Shown: piece by piece, positions 1,054 through 57,322 of the stretch
How positions within the stretch are numbered: the stretch's first letter is position 1
Layout: each line of letters opens with the position of its first letter
Assembly (NCBI GenBank): GCA_030280995.1
Contig: JASXTE010000011.1
Coordinates: 24,508,817 to 24,572,816 of the forward strand
Length of the DNA: 64,000 nt
Direction: 5' to 3'
Origin: Hemileia vastatrix
Taxonomy: Eukaryota > Basidiomycota > Pucciniomycetes > Pucciniales > Zaghouaniaceae
Position numbers and translations under genes: made by a program
Notes under the pieces: model-generated
Database searches by the model: none
Told to the model about the DNA's origin: nothing
The model's input: the letters and a program-made list of their open reading frames with translations, nothing else

Positions 1054-1131
1054 AGAGAATGTCCACATTCTCCTACATCACAACCACCATGTTTAGCTTT
1101 CTTTCCAAATCTGCTACTGACATGGGTCCTT

Positions 1132-4367: not shown

Positions 4368-4476
4368 TTTAACCTCTTGGTGGAGGAGGGAACAATCTTC
4401 CAGTTAATCCTCATGGGGGAGGAGAGAAAATTCTTCCAGTTTAGCATTATAGGGGAGGACCAAAAATTGATATTGA

Positions 4477-19946: not shown

Positions 19947-19958
19947 CTCCCTCACTCT
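19947..19958 (-). other. Polypurine tract of element B
   Basis: The minus strand reads AGAGTGAGGGAG directly before the 3' LTR. It is identical in element D (57290-57301). Confidence 0.8.
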
Positions 19959-19978
19959 AAAAAAACAATAAAAAAATG

Positions 19979-20917: not shown

Positions 20918-20980
20918 GTAAGACCACCATAAGAAAGCTAATTCTTTGGTGGATACATCTTTGTGGATGGGAATAAATTT

Positions 20981-34387: not shown

Positions 34388-36407
34388 GATAAACTACCAA
34401 CCATTTTCTATGAATATTTACTCTTCAAAAGAGTTTAAACTAAAATCTATCATTAAAAATAATGATAATTAAAATTTCAAATGTTGATAAAGTTTATGGT
34501 GAAGAATTGTGTTGGGATGTATTTATTTTTTGTAGAGTTGTTCACAGAGAAACCTTCAAAATTTGATATTGGATAGTTTTTGGGTAATTGATGGGCTGGC
34601 TTCTCAATACACAATTACCCCACAATTTATTTTACTGAAATTTCCCTGTTTCTAGTTGAATCCTGGCTTTGTTTTTGTTATATAGTGTGTTCTCTACAAC
34701 TATAAAATGGATCACATGACATTACAAAACCTAATTTCAGCCTAGGTATTCCCAGGACTGCGTATTTCTTATGTTTAAAAAAATATAGCCTTAATAGAAT
34801 TAAGATTATATGTAAAAATTATGCTTATTATACTTATATATATATTTATTACACTATTATATAACTTATATGAATTTAAATGGCTTATCCATAGAGCTAT
34901 AATACTTATTAAGGTGCTAATGGAGTCATAATATATTTATCTTAAGTAATATTAAGTAATTATAGACATACATAAGCTTATATGAATGCATAAAACTCAT
35001 ATTCAGTGAAATATGTAGTTATATTATGTATATATAGGTCTATAAGCAGGTTTAAGCCTCTAAATAGCCTGTAATATTTATTTTTCTGCTTATTTTAGTT
35101 CATATGGATGTATTCAATGGACTCACCAAGTCTACACAAGCATATACACCTTTTTCAGGTGCATATATCCAGTTTGGACAGCTTAATCTGCTTCCTTTGA
35201 TAGACTTTCATGGATTTATTGGTTGGGATATGATTACTGGGTTAATATGGATTCTTGTGGATTTTATTGGGGGCTTATAAAGTTGATTTGTCTCCTTTAT
35301 ATGCTTTGTTTTTCATTTTATTCTTTTTGGATGAGTTATTTTACCTGTTTCTTTATGGTATTGGCTTTTATTTGATTTCTCTATTTAAGGTATGGGTTTA
35401 TGATACCATTAATTGTGATGGGGGGTCGTTATTGGAGGTCTGGGTGTTTAAACTTCTTTAAATGGAGCCCATGGTGAAGTGATGGGCCCTCACAGTGCTG
35501 TAACTGTGGGGGATATCAGGGACATCATCTGGATTGAAGGTCTCTGCACTCCAGTGGATTTTGGTATAAGTAAGGGAGGATTTGAAGGGTTATCAATCAA
35601 TCAATCACTTACTTACTACAGCTAAAATAAACATCATAAAACAATTATTATCATATAAAAATATATTTAAAAGCCTTTATAAATTGATATTATATTTATA
35701 TTAGCTATAACTATATTTTATTAACCTCTTTTCCACCACTAGCCCACACCAATCCAAATATTGTGAGTTAATATTGAGCACAACTATTTTATTAGTCTTT
35801 CCCTGAGGCTTAATCACTAAATAATATATAAATAATTTTTAGGGCCATTAATATTTACTATTAAATCATACTTAAATACTAGCATACACTGACAATTGGG
35901 AGTCTTTCCTAAATTATAACTTATTATTTAGTATAAGCCTTAGGACTTGATTTTTTTTATATACTATAGCTCATATAAACCAAATATTTGTGTCTTCAGC
36001 ACATTATTGGGTCATAATATCTCAGTAATTGTGGAAAAGAACCCTTATAATAATTTTACTAACTTTGAAAAAATAAAAATTAGGTATTTACAGTAGTAAC
36101 TGTACCCAATATAAATTTGATTTCACTTGGTATTTGGTCACCAATACCACACCCAATTAAAGTGGTATTTGGTTAAAGCTTGGTAAGCTAATTACTCACA
36201 CTTATAAAGGTCTAGTTTAACTTATTATCTAATTATTAACTGATTTTTTTTGAACTTTTATTATATTTTATTTAAATAAATATAAATATAAATTCAGGGT
36301 AAGCTCCAGTGCTTTTGTTAGTATTTATATTACTAATATTTTTTATCTTCTGATTACCATACAAGTTTTCCCTTTTGTTGGTATGTAAAATAGTTATTTT
36401 AGACACT
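34388..36407. other. Spacer between relics E and F
   Basis: 2 kb, very AT-rich, with no recognised gene. It should hold the 3' end of E and the LTR/leader of F, but no convincing LTR boundary was found. 36140-36185 repeats TGGTATTTGGT. A less AT-rich block at 35100-35560 has no readable protein. Confidence 0.35.
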
Positions 36408-37217
36408 ATGAGTTCTCCACAGGACAATGTAAGTGATAAGCCTGCTTTTAATACCAGGTCTAAATTTAAAAACAATGTACCAGGACATAACTATGAAAGT
36501 ACAGTCTTATCCCCAGCCAGACAAAATGAGCATAGAGGAAAAAGACACGCTCCTAAAGAAGATAACTATAAAGAAGACATCAACTCCTCTTCAGGATCAG
36601 CTGTCCCACTTGGAAAAACAAGCTCTGAAGCTGGAGGAGTCAAAGTCTTCTATCATAAAAGAGGTGGAAAAAGTGGTAAACAACTTCAGGATAGGACTCC
36701 AGCAACCAAACAAAACTCTGGCAGAGCTGGAGGGAGTACAGCTAAACCAGCTACCCCCTACCTAAGGAGGATCATGTCAGTATCAGGACAAGATCTTGGT
36801 GGAGAAATGGAAATGGGATTGTTGTCACCAACAGTGGGCCAGTCACAACTGCAGCAGGGATCCATCCCCTTATCAGACCACTTCAAATTGCCCTTACAAG
36901 CCAAAGCAAAAGCATCAAAAACCAGGGCTTGCTCCTATCCCTTGGTAAGTAGATTGCCTTTTAAGATTACAAATAATACTGATTATTACAATGCAGGTAA
37001 TTTAATTTATGTGAAATCTGTCCAGAAGATTGAGGAGGATTTGAGGCAATTGTGTTTTGATGTAGATACACCTGACTTATATTTTTTCAATAAAAATATT
37101 ACTATTTATAATAATGATACAGTTAACTCTCAGTTTCCATCACATATTAGTGAGTTGAGAGATTCAAGAAATATTGAAAAATTTGAGAAGCAAGATGTTG
37201 AGTATTTTAATAAAAAT
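36408..37217 (+). pseudogene. ORF1 and Gag start of element F, two overlapping frames
   Basis: Frame a starts MSSPQDNVSDK at 36408 and is open for 269 codons. It includes MEMGLLSPT and the Gag-like IEEDLRQLCFDVD. The +1 frame (within 36433-36765) encodes the coiled coil seen in D (QDQLSHLEKQALKLEESK) and later WKWD and PIPW-stop at 36955. So two frames overlap as in B and D. TTGGTAA replaces ATGGTRA at the junction. Confidence 0.55.
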
Positions 37218-37256
37218 TAAACTGTCTATAGAATTTTTTCACCATTATGGAATAGA

Positions 37257-38520
37257 ATGACTGAGTGTGAGGAAAAGGCAATTAAGCTCACAAGTGAAAC
37301 AATTTTTCCTTTAACATTGAATATTTCTCAATTAGAAACAATAAATAAAGAATTTGATAAAGAACACTTGTCTCTATCTCTTAAATATGATTCTTTAAGT
37401 AATAAATATAGTGAACTTTTAAAAAAATTTAGTGAGTTAGAAAAATTGTAGGAAGCAAATTTATTAAAATATGAATCAAGAACAAAGTTATCTTTTGCAC
37501 AAACAAATAAAACTGTCTCTGATTTGTTACAAAGATTAACTAAGGTTGAGATTGAAACTGCCAATCCACTAATGAATAAGGATAATCACAAGTATACACA
37601 AAATAATAATAATCCTTTCATTTGGAAAAAGAAATCTCAATCATTACCATTGCCACCAAAAATAAAAACATCTGGTGGAAGTTTCAAATCTGAAAGAAAA
37701 AATGTTAGTCAAAAATCAGTAAAAGAGTGAATACAGGACAATTTATCTAAAGTAAATGAGTTATTAAATTTTCCCAGGATTAGTGAGATTAAACCTAATC
37801 AGAAGAGTTGGCTAAAAATTGACCAGTACCCAACTTATTATGGGGAATCCAGCTCTGATTGGCAACATTTTATTCAAAGAATTGACAATGTACAATTCTC
37901 ATATATTTTACCATACGAAGAAATAACATCAAAACTAATTTCATTATTCAAGGATTTTGCTTTATTATGGTTTGAAGCTCTATTAAGTGAGGGTAATGAT
38001 TACTTTTGGGCTGAATGGAAACAACTAATTGAAAAAAATTTAGAGGTTCTAAATTCAGACTAACCCAGCAAAGATTATATGAGAAAACAAGCTACAATCC
38101 ATTGAATGGTGACAAAACTATTGTATTCTTAATGAATTTAAATAAAATATTAAAAGCAATTGAGCCAAAGATGGATTTTAACTTATGGAAAGATAAAATA
38201 ATATATAAATTAGCTATATCTGTGAGAGACATTGTTGTAGCTAGAACAATAATGGTTAATTAATACTCTGAATTTATTAATATTTGTAATGAAATACTAT
38301 TAAACCACAAGTATGAAGCAAGGTAAACCACTTATAATCAAAATAATGAACCTGTGAAAAATTAGATTTTAAAACCACTCTGGGAAAAGCAGAAAAAACC
38401 TACTGCACCTGTAGTACCTAAAACGTATGAGACAAATACTTTTTATAAGTGTAATAAGCCTTGGGTTAAAGGTCACAAATCTGATAAAAATATAAATATT
38501 GTTGAAAATCAGCAATAATC
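37257..38520 (+). pseudogene. Gag of element F
   Basis: Coiled-coil-rich pieces (37257-37451, 37524-37730), then the gag domain with stops ignored: GESSSDWQHFIQRIDN, KLISLFKDFALLWFEALL. A damaged zinc knuckle near 38436-38475 has W-x2-G-H left, but the first and last Cys are lost. Confidence 0.7.
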
Positions 38521-38559
38521 TGCAAATGAAACAGAAAAAAGTAAAGATTAAGTGATTTT

Positions 38560-39270
38560 GACAGTAATATCTCATATAGTGATGGAAATAAGGTCTGTAT
38601 GTTTGTAGATAATTTGTCCATCTTTAAAGATCTAATATTAAGTATGGACTCAAATGTATCATTAATGAATTTTGAAGATGCTGAGATCATTAAGGATATA
38701 CAAGCTGATAACTTATTAATGACACCTATCAAGGTTCCAGCAATAATTTCTGGAGAAACTGTAAATATAGTATTGGATGCAGGAGCTGTTGGTTCTGTTG
38801 TTTCTGCATATAAATTACAGAAAATTGATACTGATTATGAATCAAAGCTTGAAGCCCTTCAAAGTATAAATTGGAGAGGGTTTTTATCAGTAATACACCC
38901 CATTGATAGATATAAAGCTGCTTCCTTCTTTAAACATTAACATGGTTATGTTAGAGTAACTTGTGACTTTGTAAGAATGGATAATACTAATTTTAGTAGC
39001 TGTTTTATCATTGTTAATGAAATTCTGACAAATTTTGGTGTGAAATTAGACCCTTCTAATAATAATTTTACAATTGGAATGAATGGTAAAATTAAATTTA
39101 AAATAAATTCTTTTAACACAGTCTTACACATTGAGTCAGTAATAGATATTCCTTGCAAAGGAAGAGAAACCAGTGAGATGGAACTTCTGGAGACAGAAAT
39201 TTCAAAAGCATCATTTGGAACTCAGATAAGTGAAGCTGAGAAGAGAAATAATTTGGACTTAATTTAGGCT
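38560..39270 (+). pseudogene. Protease of element F
   Basis: 38599-38940 carries NIVLDAGAVGSVVS, where D-A-G replaces the D-S-G active site. 38977-39267 continues with IVNEILTNFGVKLDPSNNNF. A stop at 38938 separates them. It aligns with B and D. Confidence 0.75.
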
Positions 39271-39276
39271 TTTCCA

Positions 39277-39701
39277 ATGGCTTTTGCCCATGGAACTAAT
39301 GAACTTGGCTTTGTGAAAGATCATGAGATGAAAATTAGTTTAACCTGTGAAATGGATAATATTCCAACTAGTCTTGAAATTAAACAATACCCTGCTTCAC
39401 CAATGAAGAGGAAATACATAGAGGGTAATATTAAGATGTTTTTAAACATGATCATTATTTAAAATGTAGAGACTACACCAAAATAATGTGTAATATCATC
39501 AGTGCTAATTTCTTATAAACAAGATAAAGCAAGGCTGTGTGGTGATTATAGAGCATGCAATACATTTACAGTAGATGATAGTTATCCCTTTCAAAATATT
39601 ACCTCTATAAATGCTACCCTTAAATGTGCTAAATACATAAGTTTCCTAGATGGAAATTAAAGGTACCATCAAATTTCTTTTTTAAAGAACTCACAGAAAG
39701 T
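39277..39701 (+). pseudogene. Start of reverse transcriptase of element F
   Basis: MAFAHGTNELGFV, then LCGDYRACNTFTVDDSYPF, KYISFLDGN, a stop, YHQISF. The sequence is cut at 39701 by the LTR of element C, before the catalytic Y-x-D-D. Confidence 0.75.
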
Positions 39702-40801
39702 TGTAGACAATCCTATAGTAATAGCTATAGGCCTTGACCAAGGAGTTGGAGTAAAACTGGAGAGAAAACCCCCTGTCCCTTTGAGAAAATACCAGGTGAT
39801 ATTAATTTTCTACAGCAAATTAGAGACTGTTACTATACCCCTTCCAACACACTTCTTGACTGCTTAACAAGTCAAGACAGTAGCCAATAGCAGACCACTG
39901 AGAACCAAAGAACCAGAAACCTGACATGCAGAAAGATCCACAGCCAAAAAACAAAACCCTGTTCACTTGTTGCACAGAAATCAGCAGTAATACTTGATGC
40001 AGGTTGCAAAGCTACACCAGAGAAACCAGTTGCCAAAGTTGAGTTAAATGAAGAACTAACCTTGCAACAAACACAGCCATTTGTGGCCAAAAAATGGTGA
40101 AAACTGAGTGAGAACAATGATATCACCTCCAGATGTTTGTATGATAATAAAAGTTGCCCCAAACTGTCTTATTCAGTATGTACACATAGACCACCATCTA
40201 AAAAATCCACGCGCAGCAACATATATGGCAATTTTGGCAGCAAAATCGAATAAAAACCCTCTATAAACGCTCCCCATCCTTCTACAACCAAGGCGGGCAG
40301 GCCACCCAACACGGACGGCCTTCCTAGAAGTAGCCAGACCTCCCTGAAGTCAGAAAACCACCAAAAACCTCCAATAAAGCCCAAAATACTTAGAGAAATC
40401 CACCACAACTACTAAAGCCTTTAAAACACAAAATTAAGCTATGACAACATTGAGACATAAAATATAGATCCAAATTAGCTCTTCTATATGGTACTAAGCA
40501 CTTAACCCTAAGACTTAAGGTTAGCCCGTAAAATACAAAAAACAAAATTAAACAGCTATCTTTTAGAACTGAAAAATGAGCAAGTAAAACCTAGAAACTT
40601 AGAATATGAAAAATGTCATCAAATCATGAAATATAGAGAAAAACCGGAACTATCCAATGGTCGTACCCACATACTCATAGTCCCATTATTTACTGAATAA
40701 AACCAGAAAAACACCCAATTATTCAACCAATGTCAATTAAGACATACCAAAACAGCTCCAAACAGCCCAACAAAGGCCTCTGCCAATGTTGGAAGACCAC
40801 A
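39702..40801 (-). repeat. 3' LTR of element C
   Basis: 1100 bp, plus-strand ends TGTAGACAATC and GGAAGACCACA. Homologous to 51797-52745 and to the LTRs of A. A leftward ORF at 40408-40169 ends in the same residues (LDGGLCVHTE) as one in the other LTR. Confidence 0.9.
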
Positions 40802-40813
40802 TCCTCCCTCCAA
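40802..40813 (-). other. Polypurine tract of element C
   Basis: The minus strand reads TTGGAGGGAGGA directly before the 3' LTR, as in element A. Confidence 0.8.
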
Positions 40814-40882
40814 TTGAGAATTTCCGCATTATCCTTCACCAAAACCACCATTTTCACACATTTTTCAAAACCCATCTCTAAA

Positions 40883-41474
40883 ATGGGTCCCTTTAAATAC
40901 TGTATTGACCATAACCTCATCTGTACCATAAAGCCACCAATCCATCCATACAGAACTGCTTGTGACTCCTTCTACTCCAGAAAGAAATCTTGCTCCAGAC
41001 CTGGTCCATCATCATCTGCAACAGATTAAACTCCCCCTCAACCTGGTCCATCTTCCAGAAAAAACAAAAGATCTAGGTCTTCCATCTTGATACAGAGATT
41101 AATCAACAAGTTAAAACCTTCTAAAAAGAGTGCCAACACCACCACAACCACTAGCTCTATCATACCTGGTCCTTCTGATGGTAAAACCAATGCTTCTCCA
41201 TACTGAAATTTAAGCTGATGAATTTCCAGTTCATTCCCATCCAGACTGTGATGATGACAATGTGGGAACCATTAAAACACCACCACCCAATCAATTTCCC
41301 ACCATCAAGGACAAATTCCAACAACACTCCTCTCAACAAAAACATCTCATTCTAAAAGACTTCCAATCCACTCCTGCCAAAGATCCACAGGAAATTGAGA
41401 AAAGAAGACACCTCATCCACCAATTCAAGACTAATGCTGAACACTTTGTTTCATCTCTTGATTCTCTTCTGTAA
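40883..41474 (+). pseudogene. Antisense ORF 1 of element C (aORF1)
   Basis: Starts ATGGGTCC at 40883, 70 bp from the polypurine tract, and reads against pol. The cysteine cluster is damaged: the first Cys of each C-x2-C pair or its partner is replaced (F-K-Y-C and C-D-S-F), unlike the intact cluster in A at 1132. After a stop (41028) it reads through a Ser/Thr-rich linker and a frame change into the C-terminal block (KFQQHSSQQKHLILKDFQS, DPQEIEKRRHLIHQFKTN, SSLDSLL) ending at TAA 41474. That block is the most conserved part between A and C. Function unknown. Confidence 0.6.
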
Positions 41475-41520
41475 TTGATTCTTGCCTGAAATTCTTGACT
41501 TAGAAATAAAATAAAAAAAC

Positions 41521-41960
41521 TCCTCAGTTTAAAGTCTTGGGTGACTCATCCTCAGTTTTAAGTCTTGGGGACTAACAGCCCTCATTTTATAGTCTTGGGG
41601 GACTTAAAAACCCTCAGTTTATAGTCTTAGGGGACTCAAAACCTAAATCATAAAGACAGAACCAGAGATCAAACCATTAAAGACTAAAGAAAATAAACTA
41701 AAATTCTGGGATAACTGTTCTAAAGAGCAGTAAGCTCATCAGTTACCCCCACACTTGCCTTAACTAAATTCAGAGGCTCCCCCTTTGGATTCCCTCTGTC
41801 AGAATTACACAAACATCACATTATCAGTTTATAGTCCTGAAGGACTCAACCATCAAACCATCCTCAGTTTATAGTCTTGGGGGACTATACCATTTTCAGT
41901 TTAAAGTCTTGATGAACTTACCAGTGTTCAGTTTAAAGTCTTGACGGACTCTTCACACTT
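41521..41960 (+). repeat. Field of eight short hairpin repeats, element C
   Basis: Units AGTTTAWAGTC-N5-GGACT start near 41525, 41553, 41586, 41617, 41826, 41863, 41897 and 41928. Two more, looser copies lie at about 44561 and 44819. Each unit has AGTC and GACT as an inverted repeat. Same field as 1808-2484. Confidence 0.75.
41709..41747 (+). other. Conserved stem-loop, copy 2
   Basis: GGATAACTG with one bulged A pairs with CAGTTACC; inner stem GAGC/GCTC around AGTAA. See 1988-2025. Confidence 0.55.
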
Positions 41961-42060
41961 TGCATAAAACAATCAGAGCCATTTCCATGCACAATACTCT
42001 GAAAACACCCTACTTAACTTCCACTTTCTCTTAATCATATACACATCACTGATAAAAAAA

Positions 42061-42104
42061 TTTCTTTTATCTCTTTTCTCTTCATTGTTTTCCCATCACA
42101 GATA
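42061..42104 (+). promoter_or_regulatory. Possible 3' splice site just before aORF2
   Basis: A long pyrimidine run (TCTCTTTTCTCTTCATTG, then TTTTCCCATCACAG) ends in CAG three bases before the aORF2 start codon at 42105. This is the form of a fungal intron acceptor and would fit a spliced antisense transcript. No convincing donor was identified. Confidence 0.4.
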
Positions 42105-43651
42105 ATGGCCAGATCCCCAGACTTTGACCCATCAGATCTTCCTTGTTTCACTGATCCCAAGGACTATGCTTGCAAACAGTGTATCCACATGTGCAGACCT
42201 TGCACTTTCACTCTTCCAACTCCTGAAGCCAAAATGTACAACAGGGCTTGTGATTTTTGCAACTCCAAAAAGAAAAAGTGTGACAGAGACCCCAATTATC
42301 CTATACCACCACCTTCACCTTCACAAAAATACACCTCTATATCTCCTACCAGATCTCCAGAACTAGGTCCTGCTTCCTCCTCTCTATCTTCTTCTCCATC
42401 CAGAAGATCATGCCGCTCGGTCCCCAGAACTCTCTCCAAAAGACCTTCCCTATCATCCCAAGAAACAGCCTTTATCTCAGCAAATACGGCTAAAACAGCT
42501 TCAAAATCAGCTCCCAGGCTTCTAGACCCCATCAAGGCGGCCTGTCTGCCATTCTAGAAAGCGGAAATCAGGCTCAAAACTTCAAAATTCAACCAGAAAA
42601 CAGCCAAAATCCACCATTAAACAACAACAACTCCACGCAACAACCTCCTAGTGCTCCCAGAGCAATGCGCACAAAAATTTCTTCATCAAAAATTACCAAA
42701 AACTCTAAAACTTCTAGAAGACCTGAAAAAGGACCTCAAGAAGGAACCATAGCACCCAACACTTCCCCCAAACAAAAATCCCCCTCTCAATCAAGAGGAA
42801 TTAACTAAGCCTCTCCTCTTCCAGAAAATTACTCCTCTGAAAGTTTCATTTCTTCCAGATCTTCATCCAGAAGATCCCAATCAGCTTCCAGGTCACCTTC
42901 TCCTGGTCCATCCTACAACAAACCTGGCACTCCTCCACCATTATCAAACCAAACTGGGTCAAGCAACAATACCAACAACAACAACAGCAGCCCTGCTGCT
43001 CCAACCAGGACACAGGAACACCCTCCTTCTAGTCCATCTTCACAACACCATTTAGAGATTGATCATGAGAATCCATACCTTCATCTGGTTGATCCTCCTA
43101 CAACATGCATTCAGAATTCTTCAACAGCTCAAATCCTGGCTGCTTACAAATTTGATGAGCTCCCAATCTGTAAGTACCAAATTGATAAATTCAATTTCTC
43201 TAACATAGAACAATTACTGATCCAATTCTTCTGTTTAGTTGGAACCCCCCCTCCTGAAACTGAAATTGGGATTGGCCAACCTCTAGAAACTACCTTAACC
43301 TGGATTACACCAACATGAAACAACACCTAAGCATTATGTGTTCTAACATGCTTAAGATCTTTCTCTTCATGGTCCGTTGAATGATTTGAAAAGAATCTGA
43401 GGAAACAGCTCCTTGATGACCACTGGAAGATGTCTAGAATAATCAAGCACACCTTCCAACACTCTATCCCTGCTTCTTCGACTTCTTCCCAAAAATCACC
43501 TTCTATTCCAGTCCCTGACCATTACAACCCATATACTTTTTCCAGCCGCCTACATCACAAAGAACACAGTTCTTCCTCCAATCCTAACAAAAAGCAAAAA
43601 GGCCACCATAATCCAGACCAACCGCCAGAGGCTTCTTCTTCCAGAAATTAA
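42105..43651 (+). pseudogene. Antisense ORF 2 of element C (aORF2), zinc-cluster-like, about 515 codons
   Basis: Starts MARSPDFDPSDLPC. Residues about 23-65 form C-x2-C-x6-C-x16-C-x2-C-x6-C with the basic segment CNSKKKKC. The first 150 codons are intact (to 42557). After a frameshift near 42530-42557, one in-frame TAA (about 42807) and a second frame change near 43320, the reading continues: a Ser/Arg-rich stretch (SSRSSSRRSQSASRSPSP), a poly-Asn run, a probably folded region (HENPYLHLVDPPTTC, LAAYKFDELPICKYQIDKF, FFCLVGTPPPETEIG) and the C-terminus HHKEHSSSSNPNKKQ, NPDQPPEASSSRN. The last part is kept in A. The layout (cysteine cluster, SR-like linker, C-terminal domain) suggests a nucleic-acid-binding protein, by inference. 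Confidence 0.6.
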
Positions 43652-44650
43652 GATAAAAAAAGAAATTAATGATTCACTAAATAGAGAGAACAATAATAAT
43701 TAGCAGATGTATATATAAAATTTGTTTTATTTTTATTTTTATTCTTATTTTTATTCTTATTTTTTTTTATTTTTATTTTTATTTATATTTATATTTTTAT
43801 TTTTATTTTTATTTTTATTTTTATTTTTATTTTTATTTTTATTTTTATTTTTATTTTCATTTTCATTTTTATTTTTATTTTTATTTAGACTACTAACATA
43901 CGTAAAAAACTTGAAAATAATTAAACAAAATTACCCAAAAAAATATGAGAGCTAAGAAATTTAAATGAAATGAATAATAATAATTAAAAATGGTATCCCC
44001 CAGCCAATTGATGAGCTGATCCCCTGATATCTTAGCAACATCCAGTGCACCTTGATGTGGATACACCTTTAAATAATTTCTAAATGAATTGAGATAAAAA
44101 AATAAATTAAGAAAAATAATATCAATAATAATAATAAAAATGAAATAAATAGAAATCAAAAAAGATAATAAAAAATTAGATAGAGATAAAAAAGATAATA
44201 GAATTTCCTGGCTAATTGATGAACCTTTCCCCACCAATGCTTGCCCACATCCAGGTGACCCTGATGTGATTACACCATATAATATAATTTGGAGATTTTT
44301 CCACTTTTATATCCTAATAACCCCCATAGAAAAAATAAAAGAAAAAAAGGGAAAAAAGAAAATAATCTAAAACTACCATCTAACACAACCATAGACACAA
44401 AGATTTAAGAAAAGAAAAAGTCCAGCTCCATAGAAAGTCCAGTCCAAGGAAATGATCACTGGGTGGGCTCCCTCCAATAAGTAAAAATGATGGGAGACCA
44501 CCAGTGATCCACCACCAATCCAAATAGACCAAAGAAGCCAGTTCCAAGCCAGTAAGCCAGTTTAAAGTCATAGTGGACTTGAAACCTAAATAAAAGGACC
44601 AGAACTAGGATTCAAATAGTACAACAAAATACTTGAAACAGACTTTATGG

Positions 44651-44688
44651 GGTAACGTTTCTATAGAGCAGCAAGCTCATCAGTTACC
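44651..44688 (+). other. Conserved stem-loop, copy 3
   Basis: GGTAACG against CAGTTACC with weakened inner pairs; inner stem GAGC/GCTC around AGCAA. See 1988-2025. Confidence 0.5.
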
Positions 44689-44910
44689 CCCACACTTTCC
44701 AAAATATAATCTAGAAGTCTCCCCTGGGTACTTTCTAACAAAAACACAAAATCCAACACAATAAACCAAAACCAATAAGTGTGAAGAGTCCGGCACTTGA
44801 AGACCAAAATAATTTCCAGTTTTAAGTCATAGAGGACTAAAACCTGTGAAGTAAAACCAATACTAGGGTTAAATCAAATTAAGAGAAGGGGTTGGAAACA
44901 GAAAATCTGG

Positions 44911-44948
44911 GGTAATTGTTCTACAGAGCAACTAGCTCACCAGTTACC
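44911..44948 (+). other. Conserved stem-loop, copy 4
   Basis: GGTAATTG pairs with CAGTTACC using one G-U wobble on the plus strand; inner stem GAGC/GCTC around AACTA. See 1988-2025. Confidence 0.55.
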
Positions 44949-45085
44949 CCTACACTTGCCAAGATAAAATACAGAAGCCCCGCCCATGGGTACCTTCTAA
45001 CAAAAAGTCTCCAACAAAACAGATGCACAGAATCACCAAAATCCAAAATTTAAAGAATGGTCTGTAGTTTATCCTCATTGCAGAG

Positions 45086-46929
45086 TCAATCTTCTTCACT
45101 TCTAGTGCCTCTAGGGTAAAATCTCTTCAACTGATCAGCAGCCACTCTCTTCTTTAAGACTGCACCATCTAACTCCTTCAAAACATAAGAACCTCCAGAC
45201 ACCTGAGATCTGACTCTGTAAGGTCCATTCCATCTGTCAGCAAACATTCTTCCCCACTGACTCTCCAAACTTCTATTATACACCAAAACCAAACAACCAG
45301 GTTTCAAGGGATTCCTGAGTCTATGAGCCAAATGCTTGTCCCAGTATCTGACTTATTGATTTCTTATCTTCATCATTCTAGAGTATGCCTTCCCTTGACA
45401 TTCCTCTCTACATTTCAACTGTTGCATCCTGTCACAGGTCAAATCTTCTGTCTAGCACACATCATCCCAATCAATTCCAAGATAAGAGACAGCTTCCAAA
45501 TCCAATGGTAGAACAGCTTTTTCCCAAAAATTAATTCATCAGGGGAATAGCCAGTTGTCCTTTTCACAGTGACCCTATCAGCAAATAACACCAAGGGTAA
45601 ATAATGCCTCCATTTTTCAGCACTATCTCCATACATCTTCACCAAAGCATCCTTGATAACTTGAAGGCCTCTTTCAACCATGCCTTCAGCTTCAGGATAA
45701 TAAGATGTATCCACTCTGACTTTTGAACCAATACTTGCCACAGCCTTTTTAAATTCAGCTCCAAACTCTGGCCCACCATCAACAGTCACCAACTTCATCA
45801 ACCCATACCTAAACACCCATATCTTCTTCAAAACTTCTGCCACTTTTTTGGAAGTCAAATTAACCTGAGGTACTGCCTCAACCCAGCCAGACAAATTATC
45901 TCTGGCAAAAATCAAGTATTTATACCTGCCCTCTTAAATATGGACAGCATCCAAACTGACTCTTCCAAACACTTTTGATTCACCAGTAGCACAGACAACC
46001 TCATTAGGTTTCTAGTGACTTCTTCTTTGACATTCTTCACAAGATTGAAACCAACCCTGTACAGCCAACGTCATACCTGGACAACAAAATCTGTCTGCTA
46101 CTCTTCTATAAGTCTCCCCAAAGCCTCTATGACTAAGGTCTTCATGCAAAGACTTCAACACCAATTCTTGACCCTTCTTCTGAGTCACCACCACTTGAGG
46201 ATTTGGATGTCTCCTCCCTATCAAAATCCTTCCTAAAGCATAGAAGCCAGGACTCTTCTTCTTGATTGCCACCCAAGTATCATCATCACAAATATCTGGC
46301 CTCTCCAAGGTTAACAGATATTCAACCATAATAAAATAAAACCCAGTCTGACCCCAGGTCTCATCTTCAAAATCCAACAAAACAACATCTAAGGGTACCA
46401 CCCTATCATCAAAATCACCAGTGTACACATGAGCAACATGACCAGCCCATCCAGGACACCAATCCCTCAATTTTGGTACATTGTTTCTCTTCCACTGAAT
46501 CTTTGGAGAATCCAGTTCACCAACAAAAACACCATTTTCCAATCTTGAGTCATCCCAAACAACAGCCCCATCTTCATCAACAAAAACATCCTGATCACCG
46601 GAATCAAGATTAGATCCAGCCAGTTTAACCTCTTGGTGGAGGAAAGAACAATCATCCAGTTTAGCCTCATGGGGGAGGAGAGAAAAATCTTCAGCACCCT
46701 TTGTGCAAGCCCTAACCACTGGAACATCTTTGTCAAATTCTTCAGAGTCTGAATCTTCATCTGTGGGTGATCTCCTTGATAATCCATCTGGAATTGTAAA
46801 AGTTTTTCCAGGTTTGTGTACCAGGTCAAAAGAAAAATGCTGAATAAATGCCACCCACCTAGTCATTGGAGCATTTGGAAGACTAGGTGTATTTATCATT
46901 TGAACCAAAGATTTTGCATCCACCTGCAA
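45086..46929 (-). pseudogene. RNase H end and integrase of element C
   Basis: 46929-46012 begins in RNase H (VDAKSLVQM, DLVHKPGKTFTIPDGLSRR), passes an acidic linker with KL-repeat relics (LLPHEAKLDDCSFLHQEVKL) and ends in an intact integrase zinc domain (LHEDLSHRGFGE, CEECQRRSH). 45915-45439 is the catalytic core with Asp in VDGGPEF and Glu in EAEGMVERGLQ; the first Asp (about 45955) is in another frame. 45331-45086 is the GPY-type C-terminus (WNGPYRVRSQVSGGSY). Two frame breaks split the domain. Confidence 0.85.
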
Positions 46930-46944
46930 CTCAAAATGCTGCCC

Positions 46945-48039
46945 TTAAAAAACAGTTTGCAGCTGCTTCAAAATTTTTGCTACACCACACAATTCCAACT
47001 TGGGTTGAAAATATCTAGATTCAACCTCATTAAATACCATGGACTCATAACTTACTGGCCTGACCCTCCCAGTTTTATCTTCCTGAGACAACACAGCACC
47101 AGCCTCAATATAACTTGAGTCCACTTCCAGATAAATTTTTCCAGAACCAACACCATAATCTAACTTGTGAAGAATAATATCTTCACCTACCACCTTTTTC
47201 AACTTCTGAAAAGCCTCTTCACACTCTTCAGTCCATATCCACTTTGCGTCTTTCCTGGTCAGCTTCCTCAAAGGTGAAGCCAAAAAAGAAAAATCTTTAA
47301 TAAAATTTCTGACATACACACAAACCCCCAAAAATCCCCTGACTTCAGTAGTATTTTTAGGCCTTGGCCATGACTGAATTTTATTAACTTTCTTCTTTAC
47401 CATAATTCTTCCCTCTTTACATACCACATGATCCAAAATTTCCAGAGCAGAAACACAACAACAAAACTTTGACCCAGAAATGGTCAAACCAGCCTCTTCA
47501 ATCCTAAACAATACTCTCTCTAGATTAATGGAATATTCCCAAATAAATCTCCTTATACCTGGGTTCTCCTTCAGCACCGCACTTCCATAATTAGTGGAGG
47601 GTCCTTTGATTCCACCATCATCAATAAAAATACCAGAATGAGTAGGAACCTTGTCCTGTAAAGTCCAAGATTTTTGTGCTTGATATACTGATACTGAATT
47701 AGCTGCTCCTTGAGGCAACATAGTGAGCTGAAATCATCCCAGAGTCTCAAAAGTTGTAAGTGGCCCTGAATTGGTGTGAAGTTCCCTTTCATCATAACCA
47801 CCCATAATATAACCCAAACCATTACACATCCTTCCAGCAAAGGCTACCTCAAAGTCCTCCACACTTGGAGGCATCCCCACATTCTTGATAGTGACTCTAT
47901 TCAAGGCCCTAAGATCATGCACCACCCTCAGCTTCCCATTCTGCTTCTTTACACAGAAAACTGGACTTGAGTAACTAGATGTTGATTGTTTGTATAAACC
48001 AGTCCTGACTCTTTCTCTAACAATCTCTAAAAAAATCAT
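46945..48039 (-). pseudogene. Reverse transcriptase and RNase H of element C
   Basis: 48039-47734 holds the RT fingers (SPVFCVKKQNGKLRVVHDLRAL) and the block GLGYIMGGYDERELH. 47721-46945 (258 codons) holds LPQGAANSV, the catalytic F-I-D-D within GIFIDDGGIKGP, EVRGFLGVCVYVRNF, and the RNase H start (LEVDSSYIEAGAVLSQED). A stop and frame change near 47730 and a break near 46940 divide it. F-I-D-D instead of Y-x-D-D is, to my knowledge, typical of a large basidiomycete Ty3 group. Confidence 0.85.
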
Positions 48040-49057
48040 CCCTAATAGCAGCTGGAATTGGAATAGGTTTGATTTTCCAAGGTTTGTGACAAACCAGAGG
48101 AATCAAGAAAGGTTCCCCATAAGAGTGTTTCAACACACCCCTTTCCTCCTCAACAAATTCCACTGCTTTCTCCCTCAGCACAATAACGTGCAAAAACAAC
48201 TTCTTTTCCTCATCAGACAACCATCCATCAGGACCAAAATTAACAACTTTCAACCTTTCCACAGTCACCATAGCAGTTTCCACAAAATCAGGTAGATTCT
48301 TCACCAGAGGAGTACAGTATGGATCTCTTGACAAAGGTGCTCTCTTCAAAGGAGGATTCAAACCTACCAGCATAGGCTCATTGACAGGCCTAATATTCTG
48401 TGTTACCTTCTTATACCTTGCAGCTCCGCCTTCAACTTGAGGGATCATCAGAACATCTTCACCACCAGACCTGGAACAAAAACCAAGGGTTTCCCCATTG
48501 CTCACATGTGTGGCCAAGGTAATTTTCTTGAAAGGTGTAGAAGAAACCCTAGTATTGCACAATTGGGAGGACTTAATTTTATTCCCCAATCTCACCACTC
48601 CAAAACTTTTCCGCAATTCCACATCTTCATCCTGGCTTCCATCTTCTAAATCTTCAAATCTTGATTCATCTTCTGAATCACATCTTCTAAAATTGTGCAG
48701 TTTATCCTCATTCTGGAGGCCCAAAAATTGATCTTCCTGATCTTCTTTCCTCAAAATTTTGTGCAGTTTGACCTCATTCTGGAGGCCCAAAAATTGATCT
48801 TGATGATCTTCACAAAAATAATTCTTTTCTTCTTTCTTGATTATCTTCAGATTTTTTTCTTGATTTTCCTCATTTATCTTGAAATTTTTCTTGTCTTTTC
48901 TTGAGTTTTCTTCTATCCTACAAAAATAACCAGGAGTTTCCCCAATTCTCACAGTGTTTTTGGAAGGCATAGAAGAAACTCTAGTGGTGCACAATTGGGA
49001 GGACTTACTTTTAGACCCCAATCTCACCACTCCACAGCTTTTCCACATATCTTTCAA
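48017..49057 (-). pseudogene. Protease-RT linker of element C with 22-residue repeats
   Basis: 346 open codons. The N-terminal 60 are basic. Residues about 80-125 hold about two copies of the 22-residue unit found fourfold in A (DQFLGLQNEVKLHKILRKED). Then come acidic residues, a second copy of the SFGVVRLGNKIKSSQLCNTRVSSTPF block that also opens the ORF, and finally the lead-in to RT (FLIPLVCHK, IPIPAAIRDDF). The block duplication inside one linker is notable. Confidence 0.7.
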
Positions 49058-49286
49058 GAAAGATATATAACCAATCTTCTTTTTTAAATTGAATCAAAAA
49101 TAATTGAAAATCTTGAGAGAGAACAGATACTTGATAAAAAACATGAAGAATACTTGCAGAGAAGAGAAACATTAAAAAGAGAAAGTTGAAAATCCACTTG
49201 GTATATCTCCAAGGGAGCTGGCCTACTACAACCTGGGATTTCCTCATCTTGGGGAGAGGTTGTAGCACTTGGGTGATCAGCCCTCA

Positions 49287-50546
49287 TCACTCTAAAAAAT
49301 TCAGACTCCCTCTAGAGCCTGAGCCACACTCCAAAAAACCAGAGGCAGCACCCACTTCTCTTCTTCTCCTACAACAATCCATGCACTGGCACATTGAAGA
49401 CAAACCAGGCCTGGTCTCCCAACCATCCTCTCCTGGAGATGATAAACTCATGTGAACTCTCTTTTCATCTTCACCAGTCAACTCAAAACTGATTCCATCA
49501 TCAAACTGATAACCAATTCTTGCTTGAAAATCCATCAAGAATGGCCCACACAAAACAGCTTTTACAGTGCCTTTGGCAATGTAAAAATGAACCTTCCCTG
49601 AGGCTCCACCAACATCTAACTTCACAAAATCAGATGTTCCAACCAGTTTAGTTACATGGCCACCAATTCCTCTTAAATTCCCACCAATACCTCTCTTGAT
49701 GGGGAGGCCAAGATGAGTAGCCTCAAACAAAGAAATCAGGTTAATCTGAGAACCTGAATCCACCAATTCCCTAGCCTCCCTGTCATTCAGAGTGACATTT
49801 ACATAACCCAGAGGTGCAGAAAAATGAGTTTCCAACCCCTCTCCCAATTTCTCAGCAGAATCACCAATGTATTCTACCTCCCCAGATGAAACCCTTCTCC
49901 TGGTCAACAACTTTTTCTGCCTATCAGCCAGCCCAGGACTGATAGCATACAACTCTCCATAAGTAAGGGAGACCTGACCCTTATTCATCCTTCCCAGGAC
50001 AGAGTCCATAACATTAACTTGACCAGAAACCACTGGCCTCTCAAAGTGAGCTCTTTGCTTCACTACCTTGGTCCTAGAAGATTCTTGAGCACCAGAACCA
50101 CCAACAGATTTATCATCAACAGGAATCAAACCAGATCCCTCACCAGAACCTCTAGCTCCAGAAGGCTTTGGCAATGAAGCCAAAGGGACATCCTTCTCTG
50201 AGTCAGAATCAACATCCATAGGCATTGGCTCTCCCTTCATTTCCAATGCTCCAAAAGTAGGGGGGCCCATATCTGCCATACCCTTCTGCATTTTATACAG
50301 CTCCTCTTTGCTGTACTTCTTGCTAGCTGCACTCAGCTTAGGATCCACCTTTGAAGCCTTAGTCTTTGGTTGAGCCTGAGAGATGCTCTTAAACCTTCCC
50401 ACCTTTCCTGCTTTGACATCATACACACCAGCAAAGCATTCCCCACTTGACTTTCCACCACAAGAATACAACTCCAAAACACTGAAGGAAGATTTAAATG
50501 AGACTCTATTAGCCATTTTTCCCTTTCCCTTCCCATCATCTCCACC
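49287..50546 (-). CDS. Protease part of Gag-protease of element C
   Basis: 409 open codons from 50516, in the same frame as Gag and separated from it by one TAA (50549-50547). Retropepsin motif RELVDSGSQINLISLF (catalytic Asp in D-S-G) at about residue 255, glycine-rich flap-side block IGGNLRGIGGHV, end block GPFLMDFQARIGY. The tail ends in CQCMDCCRRRR and FLECGSGSRG. Element A has Lys where C has the TAA-adjacent codon, so the stop is probably a mutation rather than programmed readthrough. Confidence 0.8.
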   Translation of the reverse strand, partial: GGDDGKGKGKMANRVSFKSSFSVLELYSCGGKSSGECFAGVYDVKAGKVGRFKSISQAQPKTKASKVDPKLSAASKKYSKEELYKMQKGMADMGPPTFGALEMKGEPMPMDVDSDSEKDVPLASLPKPSGARGSGEGSGLIPVDDKSVGGSGAQESSRTKVVKQRAHFERPVVSGQVNVMDSVLGRMNKGQVSLTYGELYAISPGLADRQKKLLTRRRVSSGEVEYIGDSAEKLGEGLETHFSAPLGYVNVTLNDREARELVDSGSQINLISLFEATHLGLPIKRGIGGNLRGIGGHVTKLVGTSDFVKLDVGGASGKVHFYIAKGTVKAVLCGPFLMDFQARIGYQFDDGISFELTGEDEKRVHMSLSSPGEDGWETRPGLSSMCQCMDCCRRRREVGAASGFLECGSGSRGSLNFLE

Positions 50547-51689
50547 TTAACCAGAAGAAGAAGCCTCATTAGGCAACTCTTCAAATCTTGGCCTCCTTGA
50601 GTTAAAATTATGTCTCCTCCTCACCAAGTCCACTGGAGCCTGACCATCATTAGGCTTCACACAAGAACCATCTGGGAACTTAAACATTTTCCCATCAAAT
50701 TCCACCTTTCCTTCAGACACATCCCTATTCAGTTCCCAGAAATTGTTGGACTTGTGGCCCTTCCTGCTGCAAGAAGAGAAGACCCAAGGATCACTCCTAC
50801 CAACCCTCCTTTCAAAATCTCTAGGCTGAGAAGAAGCCTTATTGGATTTCTGAGCTTCCTGAACATAAATATGTAGCTTTTTTGTCAGATCAGCCAACTG
50901 CTCCACAACTGGGTCAACCTCTTTAGGCTTCTCAGTAGCCTTCCCCTTGTTTACACTTTTCTTCTTCCTAGATTCCTCCACATCTTCAGCAAAAGCTTCA
51001 CTTACCTTGAAAACATACTTGATGCTAGCTTCCTGGCAAGAATCCACTTCCAAAAGTTTCAGATGTCCCTCTAAAAACTCCTTCACCACAGAAAGAGCAG
51101 GAAACGTTTGATTACCATTAGGAAGAATCTTCATCTTATCCTTCCTTGCTAACTCCTTTAACACATCAATCCTAACATTCCTGGCCAAAGCAGACCAGAA
51201 AATATCCCTTGCAGATTCAGTACTCTCCAACTCCTGCATATCCACCAAATAATCCACCACTGGCTTCAACTGATCCAGAAACTTCCTATAAGTGTGGAGG
51301 TTATCAACACCTCCATAAGATTTCCATTCACTAGCAATCATATTGAGATCCACCATTGAGTATCTGGATCCCCACCTGTCTGTCATCTGCAGACACAACT
51401 TTTTCCAATCTTTCCTCCTATGATCCTCCAAAGCAGCAACCTCCTTCACCAGAGCCCTTTCATCAATGTAGAAGATTACTTGCTTCACCATTTCCAAGTG
51501 AGAAGCCCCATCCACATTCCCAGAAGCCTTAAACAGCTCCAGAAACAACTTCACATCCTCCCCCATAAACATAGGCCCCTTCCAGGACTTGATCCTGACA
51601 GAAGGCCTAACAGAAACAGGAGGATTACCATCATCAGCAGCACCAACAGTGCCACTACCACCACTAGAGAAAGAGGGTCCAGAAGCCAT
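50547..51689 (-). CDS. Gag of element C
   Basis: 380 open codons from ATG 51689 (MASGPSFSSGGSG). It is the structural protein that packages element RNA. The gag domain covers about residues 25-200 (GPMFMGEDVKLFLELFKA, WKKLCLQMTDRWGSRYSM, YRKFLDQLKPVVDYLVDM). A basic, Lys-rich stretch follows, then a damaged zinc knuckle near residue 315 (C-S-R-K-G-H kept, first and last Cys replaced by Phe). The start lies 87 bp from the primer site. Best-preserved Gag of the A/C/E group in the window. Confidence 0.85.
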   Translation of the reverse strand: MASGPSFSSGGSGTVGAADDGNPPVSVRPSVRIKSWKGPMFMGEDVKLFLELFKASGNVDGASHLEMVKQVIFYIDERALVKEVAALEDHRRKDWKKLCLQMTDRWGSRYSMVDLNMIASEWKSYGGVDNLHTYRKFLDQLKPVVDYLVDMQELESTESARDIFWSALARNVRIDVLKELARKDKMKILPNGNQTFPALSVVKEFLEGHLKLLEVDSCQEASIKYVFKVSEAFAEDVEESRKKKSVNKGKATEKPKEVDPVVEQLADLTKKLHIYVQEAQKSNKASSQPRDFERRVGRSDPWVFSSCSRKGHKSNNFWELNRDVSEGKVEFDGKMFKFPDGSCVKPNDGQAPVDLVRRRHNFNSRRPRFEELPNEASSSG

Positions 51690-51775
51690 GGTCCAATAGA
51701 TTCCAGAAAACCAATCTCCAACTACAGAAGAGAGTCCAAAAGTAACAGAAAGTCCAAAAATCTAACTAATCCTCA

Positions 51776-51792
51776 CCCCACGTTGGGCGCCA
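51776..51792 (-). other. Primer-binding site of element C
   Basis: The minus strand reads TGGCGCCCAACGTGGGG four bases after the LTR end. Confidence 0.78.
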
Positions 51793-51796
51793 GAAA

Positions 51797-52745
51797 TGTA
51801 GACAATCCTATAGTACTAGCTATAGGCCTTGACCAAGGGAGTTGGAGTAAAACTCGAGAGAAAACCCCCTTTCCCTTTGAGAAAATACCAGGTGAGATTT
51901 ATTTGCTACAGCAAATAAAAGACTGTTACTATACCCCTTCCAACACAGTTCTTGACTGCTTAACAAGTCAAGATAGAAGCCAATAGCAGACCACTGAGAA
52001 CCAAAGAACCAGAAACCTGAAATTCAGAAAGATCCACACCCAAAAAATGAAACACTTTGCACTTGTTGCACAGAAATCAGCAGTAATACTTGATGCAGGT
52101 CGCAAAGCTACACCAGAGAAACCAGTTTCCAAAGTTGAGTTAAATGAAGAACTAACCTTGCAAAAAACACAGCCAATTGTGGCTAAAAAACCGTGAAAAC
52201 TGAGTGAGAACATTGATATCATCTCCGGATGGTTGTATGATAATTAAAGCTTCCCCTAAATGTCTTATTCAGTGTGTACACACAGACCACCATCTAAAAA
52301 TCTATGCACAGCAATGAATTTGGCACTTTTGGCAGCCAAATTGAATAAAAACCCTCTAGAAGCGCTCCCCAGCCTTCTACAGCCAAGGCGGGCGGCCCGC
52401 CTAGAAGCGGCCAGACCTCCCTGAAGCCAGAAAACCACCAAAAACCTCCAATAAAGCCCAAAATACTTAGAAAAATCCACCATGACTACTAAAACCCTTA
52501 AAACACAAAATTAAGCTATGACAACATTTAGACATAAACTATAGAGCCAAATTAGCTCTACTTAATGGTACTAAGAACTTAACCCTAAGACTTAAGGTTA
52601 GCCCGTAAAATACAAAAAACAAAATTAAACAGCTATCTTTTAGAAATGAAAAATGAGCAAATGACCCCTTGAAACTTATAATATGAAAAATGTCATCAAG
52701 ACATGAAATATAGAGAAAAACCGGGGCTATCCAATGGTAGTACCC
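51797..52745 (-). repeat. 5' LTR of element C, truncated
   Basis: Matches 39702-40801 from TGTAGACAATC but stops at CAATGGTAGTACCC; the outer roughly 155 bp (the U3 start) are missing. The next base belongs to unrelated relic sequence. ORF 52483-52265 reads leftward within it. Confidence 0.85.
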
Positions 52746-54584: not shown

Positions 54585-55154
54585 TATTCTTCAGTAGTGG
54601 GCCAATTAAGATTGGACAAAATGTTAAGACCTAAGAAGGCTGACTAATACTGGAACTAACACTTACCTGAGATGGGAGTGACTATACTGAGTACCGCAGT
54701 GAGACTAACTAAGACTTACTATGTTAAGACTATAAAAAATGAGAGAAGGTGGGACTGACTATGGTGGATACAGCAGTGAGACAAGAGAATAATTAGATTA
54801 TTAGATAATTTATCCAGGGAGGAGCACTTCACAGCACTTCCACCATATAACCCCCTTATGCAACACAATGCATAGTTCCTATAGTGCTCCTCCTAGTCCT
54901 CCTCCTCACTCCTAAACCAAATCCTAAGGTCACTTCAAATCCTATTAATAAGTTAAAAAGTGACTGAAAGATAAAAAAATAATATTTCTATTTGAAATCA
55001 AATGATAATAAACTTTGGCATTACACTTCAAGCAAAATAGATATACCCCCATCTTAGGTAGATTCTAAGGGGGTGCACATGAAGTAAATATATATATATA
55101 TATATTTCCAATTTGTCAAAAAATAAAAAATAAAAAATTCCCACACCACACTGA
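54585..55154. other. Upstream flank of relic G
   Basis: No gene. Probably part of the leader or LTR of relic G. 54670-54700 and 54745-54785 share GGGA(G/C)TGACTAT ... GCAGTGAGAC, a short direct repeat. A (TA)n run lies at 55090-55106. Confidence 0.35.
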
Positions 55155-56062: not shown

Positions 56063-56143
56063 ATATGAAGATTCTTTTCAACATAATGTCTTAAAGAAAA
56101 ATACTCAACCTACCAGATGAATATAATACCCATTCAAGATATA

Positions 56144-57289: not shown

Positions 57290-57301
57290 CTCCCTCACTC
57301 T
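57290..57301 (-). other. Polypurine tract of element D
   Basis: The minus strand reads AGAGTGAGGGAG directly before the LTR. Confidence 0.8.
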
Positions 57302-57322
57302 AAAAAAAACAATAAAAAAATG

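Follow-up and report, generated by a model that had tools for sequence, protein, structure and literature searches.

The 64,000-nucleotide stretch of the Hemileia vastatrix genome considered here (hereafter the window; assembly GCA_030280995.1, contig JASXTE010000011.1, positions 24,508,817 to 24,572,816) carries two copies, termed elements A and C, of one Ty3 retrotransposon family, both on the minus strand. Between the end of pol and the 3′ long terminal repeat (LTR) of this family lie two antisense open reading frames (ORFs), aORF1 and aORF2, each of which contains a conserved intron and begins with a motif that resembles the fungal Zn2Cys6 binuclear cluster with its two halves swapped. The frames have evolved under purifying selection and are separated by a conserved array of AGTC-N6-GACT inverted repeats. 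We consider it somewhat probable that this high-copy Ty3 family carries the segment as an accessory module for regulation, in which spliced antisense zinc-cluster regulators and their own sites act on the transcription of the element.

Arrangement of the antisense module

An initial annotation of the window, made from the sequence alone, had placed the two frames opposite to gag-pol and between the pol end and the 3′ LTR, and this arrangement is confirmed, with the antisense frames on the plus strand and gag-pol on the minus strand. In element C, 4.3 kb separate the pol end (45086) from the 3′ LTR, and the open frames in this interval are on the plus strand. The ATG of aORF1 at 40883 and the stop of aORF2 at 43651 are exact, both on the plus strand. 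The start of aORF1 near the polypurine tract was also correctly noted, with 71 bp between the tract and the ATG in element C and the same distance in element A (tract 1041-1050, ATG 1122), and the coordinates and strands bear out that aORF2 converges on pol. The features of the module are as follows.

40883-41180, plus strand: aORF1 exon 1, with the swapped Zn2Cys6-like cluster; in this copy a stop at 41027, cysteines lost
41181-41229, plus strand (antisense to gag-pol): aORF1 intron, 49 nt, GT...CTGATGAATTTCCAG, frame kept on splicing
41230-41474, plus strand: aORF1 exon 2, whose conserved C-terminal block has SSLDSLL at its end; block also kept in the diverged homolog L059
41521-41960, no strand assigned: AGTC-N6-GACT inverted-repeat array, sites at 41533, 41591, 41623, 41833, 41873, 41905 (one mismatch) and 41937; unit of about 32 bp
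42105-42557, plus strand: aORF2 first frame (MARSPDF...), swapped Zn2Cys6-like cluster and S/R/P-rich stretch; codon signal ends at 42374
42558-43169, plus strand: aORF2 second frame, covering the S/R-rich part and the beginning of the C-terminal domain; frames overlap and are open in several copies
43170-43238, plus strand (antisense to gag-pol): aORF2 intron, 69 nt, GTAAGT...TTACTGATCC...TTCTGTTTAG
43239-43651, plus strand: aORF2 last exon, ends PDQPPEASSSRN, from protein alignment; broken in this copy
44566-44579, no strand assigned: AGTC-N6-GACT site near the pol end, from exact motif search
44825-44838, no strand assigned: AGTC-N6-GACT site near the pol end, from exact motif search
1122-1713, plus strand: aORF1 of element A, with its six zinc cysteines complete; frame broken by stops; intron donor reads AT in place of GT
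1812-2484, no strand assigned: motif array of element A, in which AGTC-N6-GACT is matched exactly at 7 sites and with a single mismatch at 5
2526-2666, plus strand: aORF2 3′ remnant of element A, zinc half deleted

Both window copies are dead, given the stop and the lost zinc cysteines in aORF1 of C and the stops in aORF1 of A. The initial annotation also described sequence blocks kept in both copies. For aORF1 this description holds in element A, and for aORF2 it holds only for the last part.

Distribution among family copies

Family copies were sought in 747.6 Mb of genome sequence (791 contigs). With 40883-43651 as the query, 40 of 7366 first-look candidates were scored, and 41 matches were reported, including element C and one split piece; the remainder have 80-90% identity, and 39 other loci were fetched. 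This sample was picked by similarity to an old copy (C). A separate search with pol alone, in which 40 of 7840 first-look candidates were scored, gave 39 other copies, of which the first 10 were fetched.

These searches indicate that the module is part of the family, since it is found in copies picked by pol: seven of these ten hold part of it. It is therefore not an insertion private to A and C, which the initial annotation had named as a finding that would refute its proposal. Three of the seven (L050, L055 and L056) span both genes, and L053 and L057 hold the later part of aORF2 only. The aORF1 region is present in five (L050, L051, L054, L055 and L056). The other three end before the module, at about 44.2-44.3 kb, where L048 and L049 run into sequence of other Ty3 elements that also occur in the window and L052 into unassigned sequence; a direct junction of pol with the LTR was found in none of the ten. 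With seven of ten pol-picked copies holding such sequence, the family conforms to the aORF-3R arrangement, in which an antisense gene lies between pol and the 3′ LTR in most copies. The numbers of first-look candidates, which are not counts of confirmed copies, together with the 50,498 extended motif sites described below, suggest that the family probably exists at thousands of copies.

Purifying selection on both antisense frames

In this region, all 39 fetched copies have antisense open frames of at least 110 amino acids (up to 369), whereas sense-strand frames of that length occur in only 5 of the 39. Parsimony changes were counted on the tree of a 43-row alignment, comprising 37 fetched copies, C, A, L050, L054, L055 and L056 (L041 and L047 were dropped as near-duplicates of L040 and L037). 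Internal branches are taken to represent active lineages, and terminal branches mostly decay after insertion. On internal branches, changes at the three codon positions number 42/37/81 in aORF1 exon 1 (p 1.9e-5), 28/12/43 in aORF1 exon 2 (p 1.7e-4), 25/17/74 in the zinc part of aORF2 (42105-42374, p 2e-11), 93/95/134 in aORF2 42623-43168 (p 0.007) and 29/48/105 in the last exon of aORF2 (p 6e-12). The 624 bp between the genes are flat (94/82/78, p 0.44). On terminal branches, third-position ratios are 0.97-1.19 in both aORF1 exons, the aORF2 zinc part and the last exon; terminal counts in aORF1 exon 2 are uneven (220/116/164), yet show no third-position excess.

The ratio of non-synonymous to synonymous substitution rates (dN/dS) between three subfamilies is 0.24-0.48 for aORF1 and 0.16-0.63 for aORF2, compared with 0.84-1.00 for an inter-ORF control read in three frames; these pairwise values still contain neutral decay, and L034, L035, L045 and L046 fall outside the groups. 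This comparison had been proposed in the initial annotation, with near-neutrality counting against the genes. Instead, dN/dS is below 1 in both ORFs and approximately 1 between them, and we regard antisense coding and purifying selection as well supported. A possible in-frame upstream extension of aORF1 (from 40730) was rejected, as it has no third-position excess; changes in this flank are uneven (61/81/49 from 40600).

Conserved introns

The intron of aORF1 has GT in 36 of 40 rows and AG in 35 of 40, and that of aORF2 has GT in 35 of 41 rows and AG in 35 of 41, with L047 alone left out of the rows. No internal-branch change affects any of the eight splice bases. Each intron includes a sequence resembling a branch point (CTGAT or TACTGAT) and is rich in pyrimidines at its end. 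The stretch beginning with GTAAGT in aORF2 is open in several copies, and we considered whether it is read through as protein. Internal changes counted from 43170 are 3/5/16, and this possibility was rejected because only 5 of the 24 fall at third positions of the coding frame. An antisense intron would be sensible for a retrotransposon, since the sense RNA that is reverse transcribed would not splice it out.

A Zn2Cys6-like motif with swapped halves

The initial annotation had called both ORFs zinc-cluster-like. A motif of this kind is indeed present, and its layout departs from the ordinary type, as the Pfam matches and a match to PPR1 both place its halves in swapped positions. The Zn_clus profile (PF00172) is matched in reverse order, with the first part of aORF1 corresponding to profile positions 17-36 and the second part of aORF2 to positions 1-16. 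Relative to a gathering score of 21, element A scores 20.9 and the window aORF2 16, both under the cut-off, and a diverged relative described below (L059:193-384) scores 27.4, above it. Six cysteines arranged as two CX2CX6C halves are present in aORF1 of element A and in L059. Among 36 aligned copies, all six aORF1 cysteines are found in 12, and each single cysteine is found in 25-33. The best solved structure for L059 is PPR1 (1pyi), a weak match (E 0.0055) in which the halves are again swapped.

The basic half comes first in GAL4 and PPR1 and second here, and this reversal leads us to describe the motif as one that would work like a Zn2Cys6 cluster and not as an ordinary member of that family. 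None of the literature matches listed uses 'permuted' of Zn2Cys6 or a zinc cluster. The two genes share a layout, which suggests that they may descend from a single gene. No Pfam or protein-collection match was obtained for the C-terminal part of aORF2, and a phage search gave no match, as expected.

A diverged relative conserves the aORF1 protein

Two adjacent stretches of another contig (L058 and L059 on contig C2) belong to a related Ty3 family, whose pol end (127 bp) is 80% identical to a window element near 34.3 kb and 77% identical to element C. At the position that corresponds to aORF1, just inside its LTR end, this family encodes MSSKELVAPCELCARYQVPC...CDLCRVKKVKC and, farther on, a block that resembles the C-terminus of aORF1. 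L059 and aORF1 share 34-35% protein identity in each of the two parts (tblastn 3.7e-8 and 6.3e-7). Only three pieces of L059 DNA align to the window, namely the LTR end, one array unit and a 44-bp stretch matching 17226-17267. That the protein has been kept with almost no alignable DNA is, in our view, the best evidence that selection has acted on aORF1. The L059 copy contains stops, and six in-frame GT-AG intron candidates lie between its two conserved parts, the best-looking of which is 566-652 (GTAAGA...CTTCTAG).

The related family also has an array, built of 40- and 76-bp units compared with 32 bp in the window family, around the same core; in some units both half-sites are changed, to GGTC/GACC. 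In A, L051, L054 and L058/L059, aORF1 and motif sites persist although a whole aORF2 is missing, and from these sequences the core of the module seems to consist of aORF1 and the array.

A conserved array of fixed-spacer inverted repeats

The window contains 15 exact AGTC-N6-GACT sites, seven of them in the module of A, eight in that of C and none elsewhere, compared with 0.56 expected, and none of 100 shuffles reached 15. The form that recurs between the genes is GTTTAwAGTC-N6-GACT. Among AGTC...GACT pairs with spacers of 0-15 bases in 39 copies, 217 of 232 have a spacer of exactly 6. The site bound by PPR1 is likewise an inverted repeat whose halves stand 6 bases apart, and fixed-spacer dyads of this type are what a Zn2Cys6 homodimer would bind, by analogy with such factors.

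The initial annotation had stated that the bases surrounding the ORF blocks drift, but this is not true throughout, because the 440-bp array between the ORFs changes less on internal relative to terminal branches than do the coding exons. Its internal/terminal ratio (41521-41960) is 0.111, the lowest of 13 sub-regions, with an ordinary terminal rate; ratios elsewhere are 0.27-0.33 in non-coding flanks and 0.16-0.30 in coding exons, and the array differs from the flanks with a Fisher p of 3.6e-20. Within units, the half-sites and GTTTA carry 7 internal changes over 91 positions, compared with 27 over 133 for the spacer and outer flank (p 0.011), where the outer flank comprises offsets -10 to -6 and 18 to 25, and offsets 14 to 17 (16 internal changes) belong to no group.

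Throughout the genome the extended motif occurs 50,498 times, compared with 14 for the pattern reversed, and half-site pairs that share the left flank number 36,510 for AGTC/GACT, 5,281 for AGTC/GACC, 215 for GGTC/GACT and 7,234 for GGTC/GACC, although these counts are of copies of few ancestral repeat units, are not independent and carry no probability. A left G is accompanied by a right C in 97%, and the mixed AGTC/GACC pair is not rare. The array units are tandem duplicates. With the order aORF1, array, aORF2, the sites are upstream of aORF2 at a distance of about 155-570 bp and are separated from the 3′ LTR by 0.7-1.15 kb, a placement that would be fit for control of aORF2 and the nearby LTR.

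A repeated hairpin, GGGGUAACUGAUGAGC...GCUC...GUUACCCC on the sense strand, accompanies motif sites and the pol end at 41715-41765, 44645-44690, 44900-44950 and 1985-2030, with folding z-scores of -1.4 to -2.7. The hairpin on the array side includes a CUGAUGAG box reminiscent of hammerhead ribozymes, but the rest does not fit, Rfam reports no such ribozyme, and this assignment was rejected. The Rfam search gave four matches, all below the gathering score, two of which lie on or beside the array.

Structure of the element and its surroundings

Element C is a decayed Ty3 copy with gag-pol on the minus strand. Its LTRs, primer binding site, polypurine tract and the order protease, RNase H, integrase are those of a Ty3 LTR retrotransposon.

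39702-40801, minus strand: 3′ LTR of element C, 1.1 kb, a repeat of 51797-52745; start TGTAGACAATCC at 39702
40802-40811, minus strand: polypurine tract, sense GGAGGGAGGA, adjoining the 3′ LTR; same tract at 1041-1050 in element A
45086-51761, minus strand: gag-pol of element C, broken; protease, then RNase H, then integrase
51776-51792, minus strand: primer binding site, sense TGGCGCCCAACGTGGGG, identified from sequence
51797-52745, minus strand: 5′ LTR of element C, start TGTAGACAATCC at 51797; outer ~130 bp missing

The primer binding site is, we presume, of the lysine tRNA type. The inner edge of the 3′ LTR was placed by means of the polypurine tract and the LTR copies of element A (which align to 1040/8766). 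The LTR pair is 89.5% identical over 39694-40668 and 51791-52745, and LTRs that are approximately 10% apart indicate that C is an old copy. Its gag (50547-51761) was placed by position alone, without a Pfam match. No reverse transcriptase domain was matched by Pfam in six scanned frames of this broken copy, nor was a chromodomain matched in these six frames, which do not include the last pol frame (45086-45331). A pol query against a large protein collection gave 149 matches; among the 120 listed, named records are mostly from Austropuccinia psidii (44-68% identity), and the matches listed include one Puccinia striiformis record (68% over 66% of the query), a few records from other named organisms and a best match of 69%. 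The A. psidii matches indicate that the collection includes rusts.

A different Ty3 element on the plus strand (36354-39689), about 65% identical to 22571-24464, directly adjoins element C (39702-52745), and C seems to interrupt this plus-strand element of 36354-39701. Tandem repeats of 66 bp lie between the protease and RNase H frames, five in A (4428-4814) and two in C (48689-48877), and repeats with a spacing of 12-19 bp occupy about 1 kb at 55036-56069. A second Ty3 family is represented by copies at 18659-26630 and 56347-64000, which are about 89% identical and contain no exact AGTC-N6-GACT site. Its pol-end frame (...EYLLRYKNKSSEHDAWIPGKEISNLPTLLKKYKKK) resembles, we assume, a chromodomain, and its gag-side frame (61885-63246) weakly matches the Tup N-terminal coiled coil, at 19.5 bits and so below the threshold of 28.7. 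Finally, an open frame of 455 amino acids on the minus strand (13731-15098), which has no Pfam match at E 0.01, is perhaps a host gene.

A proposed regulatory circuit and its alternatives

The suggestion in the initial annotation that the element may encode its own regulators is supported by the selection on both frames and the swapped zinc cluster and is strengthened by the adjacent inverted-repeat array. In the mechanism we propose, the two genes would be transcribed opposite to gag-pol, starting on the side of the 3′ LTR, and each would be spliced to give a protein that starts with a fungal-type Zn2Cys6 binuclear cluster with its halves reversed. These proteins, or at least that of aORF1, would most likely dimerise on the AGTC-N6-GACT sites between the genes and near the pol end, and binding there would control the element's own transcription. 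The most likely outcome would be that the module's own antisense promoter and the adjacent LTR are switched on, or kept open against host silencing, in a manner resembling that of VANC proteins. Expression, zinc and DNA binding, dimerisation, regulation itself and activation rather than repression are thus aspects of the mechanism that we infer. Activation is tentatively favoured because VANC and its tandem motifs, the closest analogue worked out so far, argue for release from silencing (PMC5735166). A broader proposal is that the module constitutes a complete and portable transcription circuit, antisense to gag-pol in a fungal LTR lineage, whose proteins and dyad sites co-evolve across families and whose sites, through amplification of the element, now number tens of thousands in the host genome; we regard the chances for and against this proposal as evenly balanced.

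Several observations count against a regulatory module of this kind. No copy examined had every part intact, two of the five pol-picked copies with aORF1 (L051 and L054) are without aORF2, and no aORF2 was recognisable in the 3.7 kb read of the L058/L059 family, though its array and aORF1 are present. Within aORF2, the interval 42375-42620 shows no codon signal in either frame (56/58/56), and the candidate intron that would link its two frames (42367-42557, derived by hand) has a weak donor. Pieces of aORF2 found no relative in a large protein collection in two queries (E 1e-3 and E 1) made with aORF2 only. Three of ten scanned proteins matched Zn_clus, none above the cut-off; single zinc halves give weak matches, and four half-length pieces were scanned without a match. 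AlphaFold models are poor, with mean predicted local distance difference test scores (pLDDT) of 49.1 and 54.4. The usual Zn2Cys6 half-site is CGG, from which AGTC differs. With one mismatch allowed, the excess of sites in the window is weaker (30 matches vs 16.2 expected, with a largest shuffle of 26), and the genome-wide site counts are subject to the non-independence already noted.

A different function for real DNA-binding proteins is a serious though unlikely alternative, namely that they are repressors, whose binding to the array would hold down transcription or copy number, through self-restraint or the exclusion of relatives. The coding, zinc-cluster and array evidence apply equally to such proteins, and because the array is located within the antisense module, proteins bound there could turn the module off; the probable thousands of copies disfavour strong self-restraint without excluding it. 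We judge it improbable, and rather more so, that the array is an unrelated tandem repeat, satellite-like or a source of small RNAs, and that the proteins act elsewhere, for example on host genes or as RNA chaperones. That the units arose by tandem duplication fits this idea, and binding of the proteins to them is a prediction, but the array has the lowest internal/terminal ratio despite an ordinary terminal rate, each of the two families has multiplied units of its own (32 bp in one, 40 and 76 bp in the other) around one core, and both half-sites change as a pair.

The remaining alternatives deny the proteins a role. Antisense non-coding transcripts are described for several retrotransposons (PMC7264820), and the antisense RNA might itself matter, as double-stranded RNA with the sense transcript or as a long non-coding RNA, with the frames as by-products. 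The third-position bias on internal branches, the dN/dS values below 1 and the diverged relative kept at the protein level make this very improbable. Even harder to credit is the passive carriage of host zinc-cluster gene fragments that were captured once. Zn2Cys6 genes are typical fungal host genes, and the want of a fully intact copy would suit such an origin, but selection acted between subfamilies and between two families, and near-neutral terminal branches are expected for dead copies of a once-active family.

Relation to known systems and implications

Judged by titles and the beginnings of abstracts, none of the papers listed in the literature searches describes zinc-cluster antisense genes in a fungal Ty3 element. 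The nearest fungal precedent is brtn of the Boty elements, on which there is reportedly a paper by Zhao et al. (2011). Boty-like Ty3 retrotransposons of Botrytis cinerea are described as carrying brtn as an additional gene antisense to gag-pol, as in the family reported here (PMC8365987, PMC4227169). The two differ in that Boty pol is described as having a chromodomain (PMC4227169), whereas none was matched in the six scanned frames of C. The present family has two spliced zinc-cluster genes and a site array.

The predicted proteins resemble PPR1 and GAL4 (PF00172) in having two CX2CX6C halves, with a basic half of the form CDxCxxKKxKC, and differ in that the halves are swapped and the half-site is AGTC. 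The known factors also use inverted-repeat sites, to which we liken the dyads of the array. A further parallel is HBZ of human T-cell leukaemia virus (HTLV) type 1, a regulator whose spliced antisense gene is likewise transcribed from the side of the 3′ LTR. HBZ, however, has a leucine zipper, belongs to an animal retrovirus and is not known to be accompanied by an array of such sites, and the systems are compared here by description. An antisense HTLV promoter is mentioned in an account of plant antisense genes (PMC7264820).

That account describes plant aORF-3R elements (maize Grande gene23, rice RIRE2, Silene Retand and PvRetro13), some products of which are nuclear and suspected of a regulatory role; their proteins are described as having no clear similarity to others, whereas those reported here have a DNA-binding motif beside a site array (PMC7264820). 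The VANDAL transposons of Arabidopsis, with their VANC proteins, offer a parallel in that a transposon-encoded DNA-binding protein is accompanied by short motifs in tandem arrays, located in non-coding parts of the element and growing by tandem duplication (PMC5735166). However, VANDALs are DNA transposons with a different protein, and their motifs are described as having a single orientation, compared with the dyads seen here. Binding and anti-silencing are reported for VANC (PMC5735166), whereas for the Ty3 module both are predictions.

Antisense accessory genes of LTR retrotransposons have long been known, and their roles are described as still undetermined (PMC7264820). The presence here of antisense genes that encode a DNA-binding motif beside conserved dyads makes the question of role testable with RNA, methylation and genome data. 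If the proposed mechanism is true, a retroelement would join the transposons that have their own sequence-specific regulators, and the family would provide a naturally occurring example of a zinc cluster whose halves have changed places. Approximately 50,000 potential binding sites would then be spread through the 748-Mb genome, as a possible source of new host gene control.

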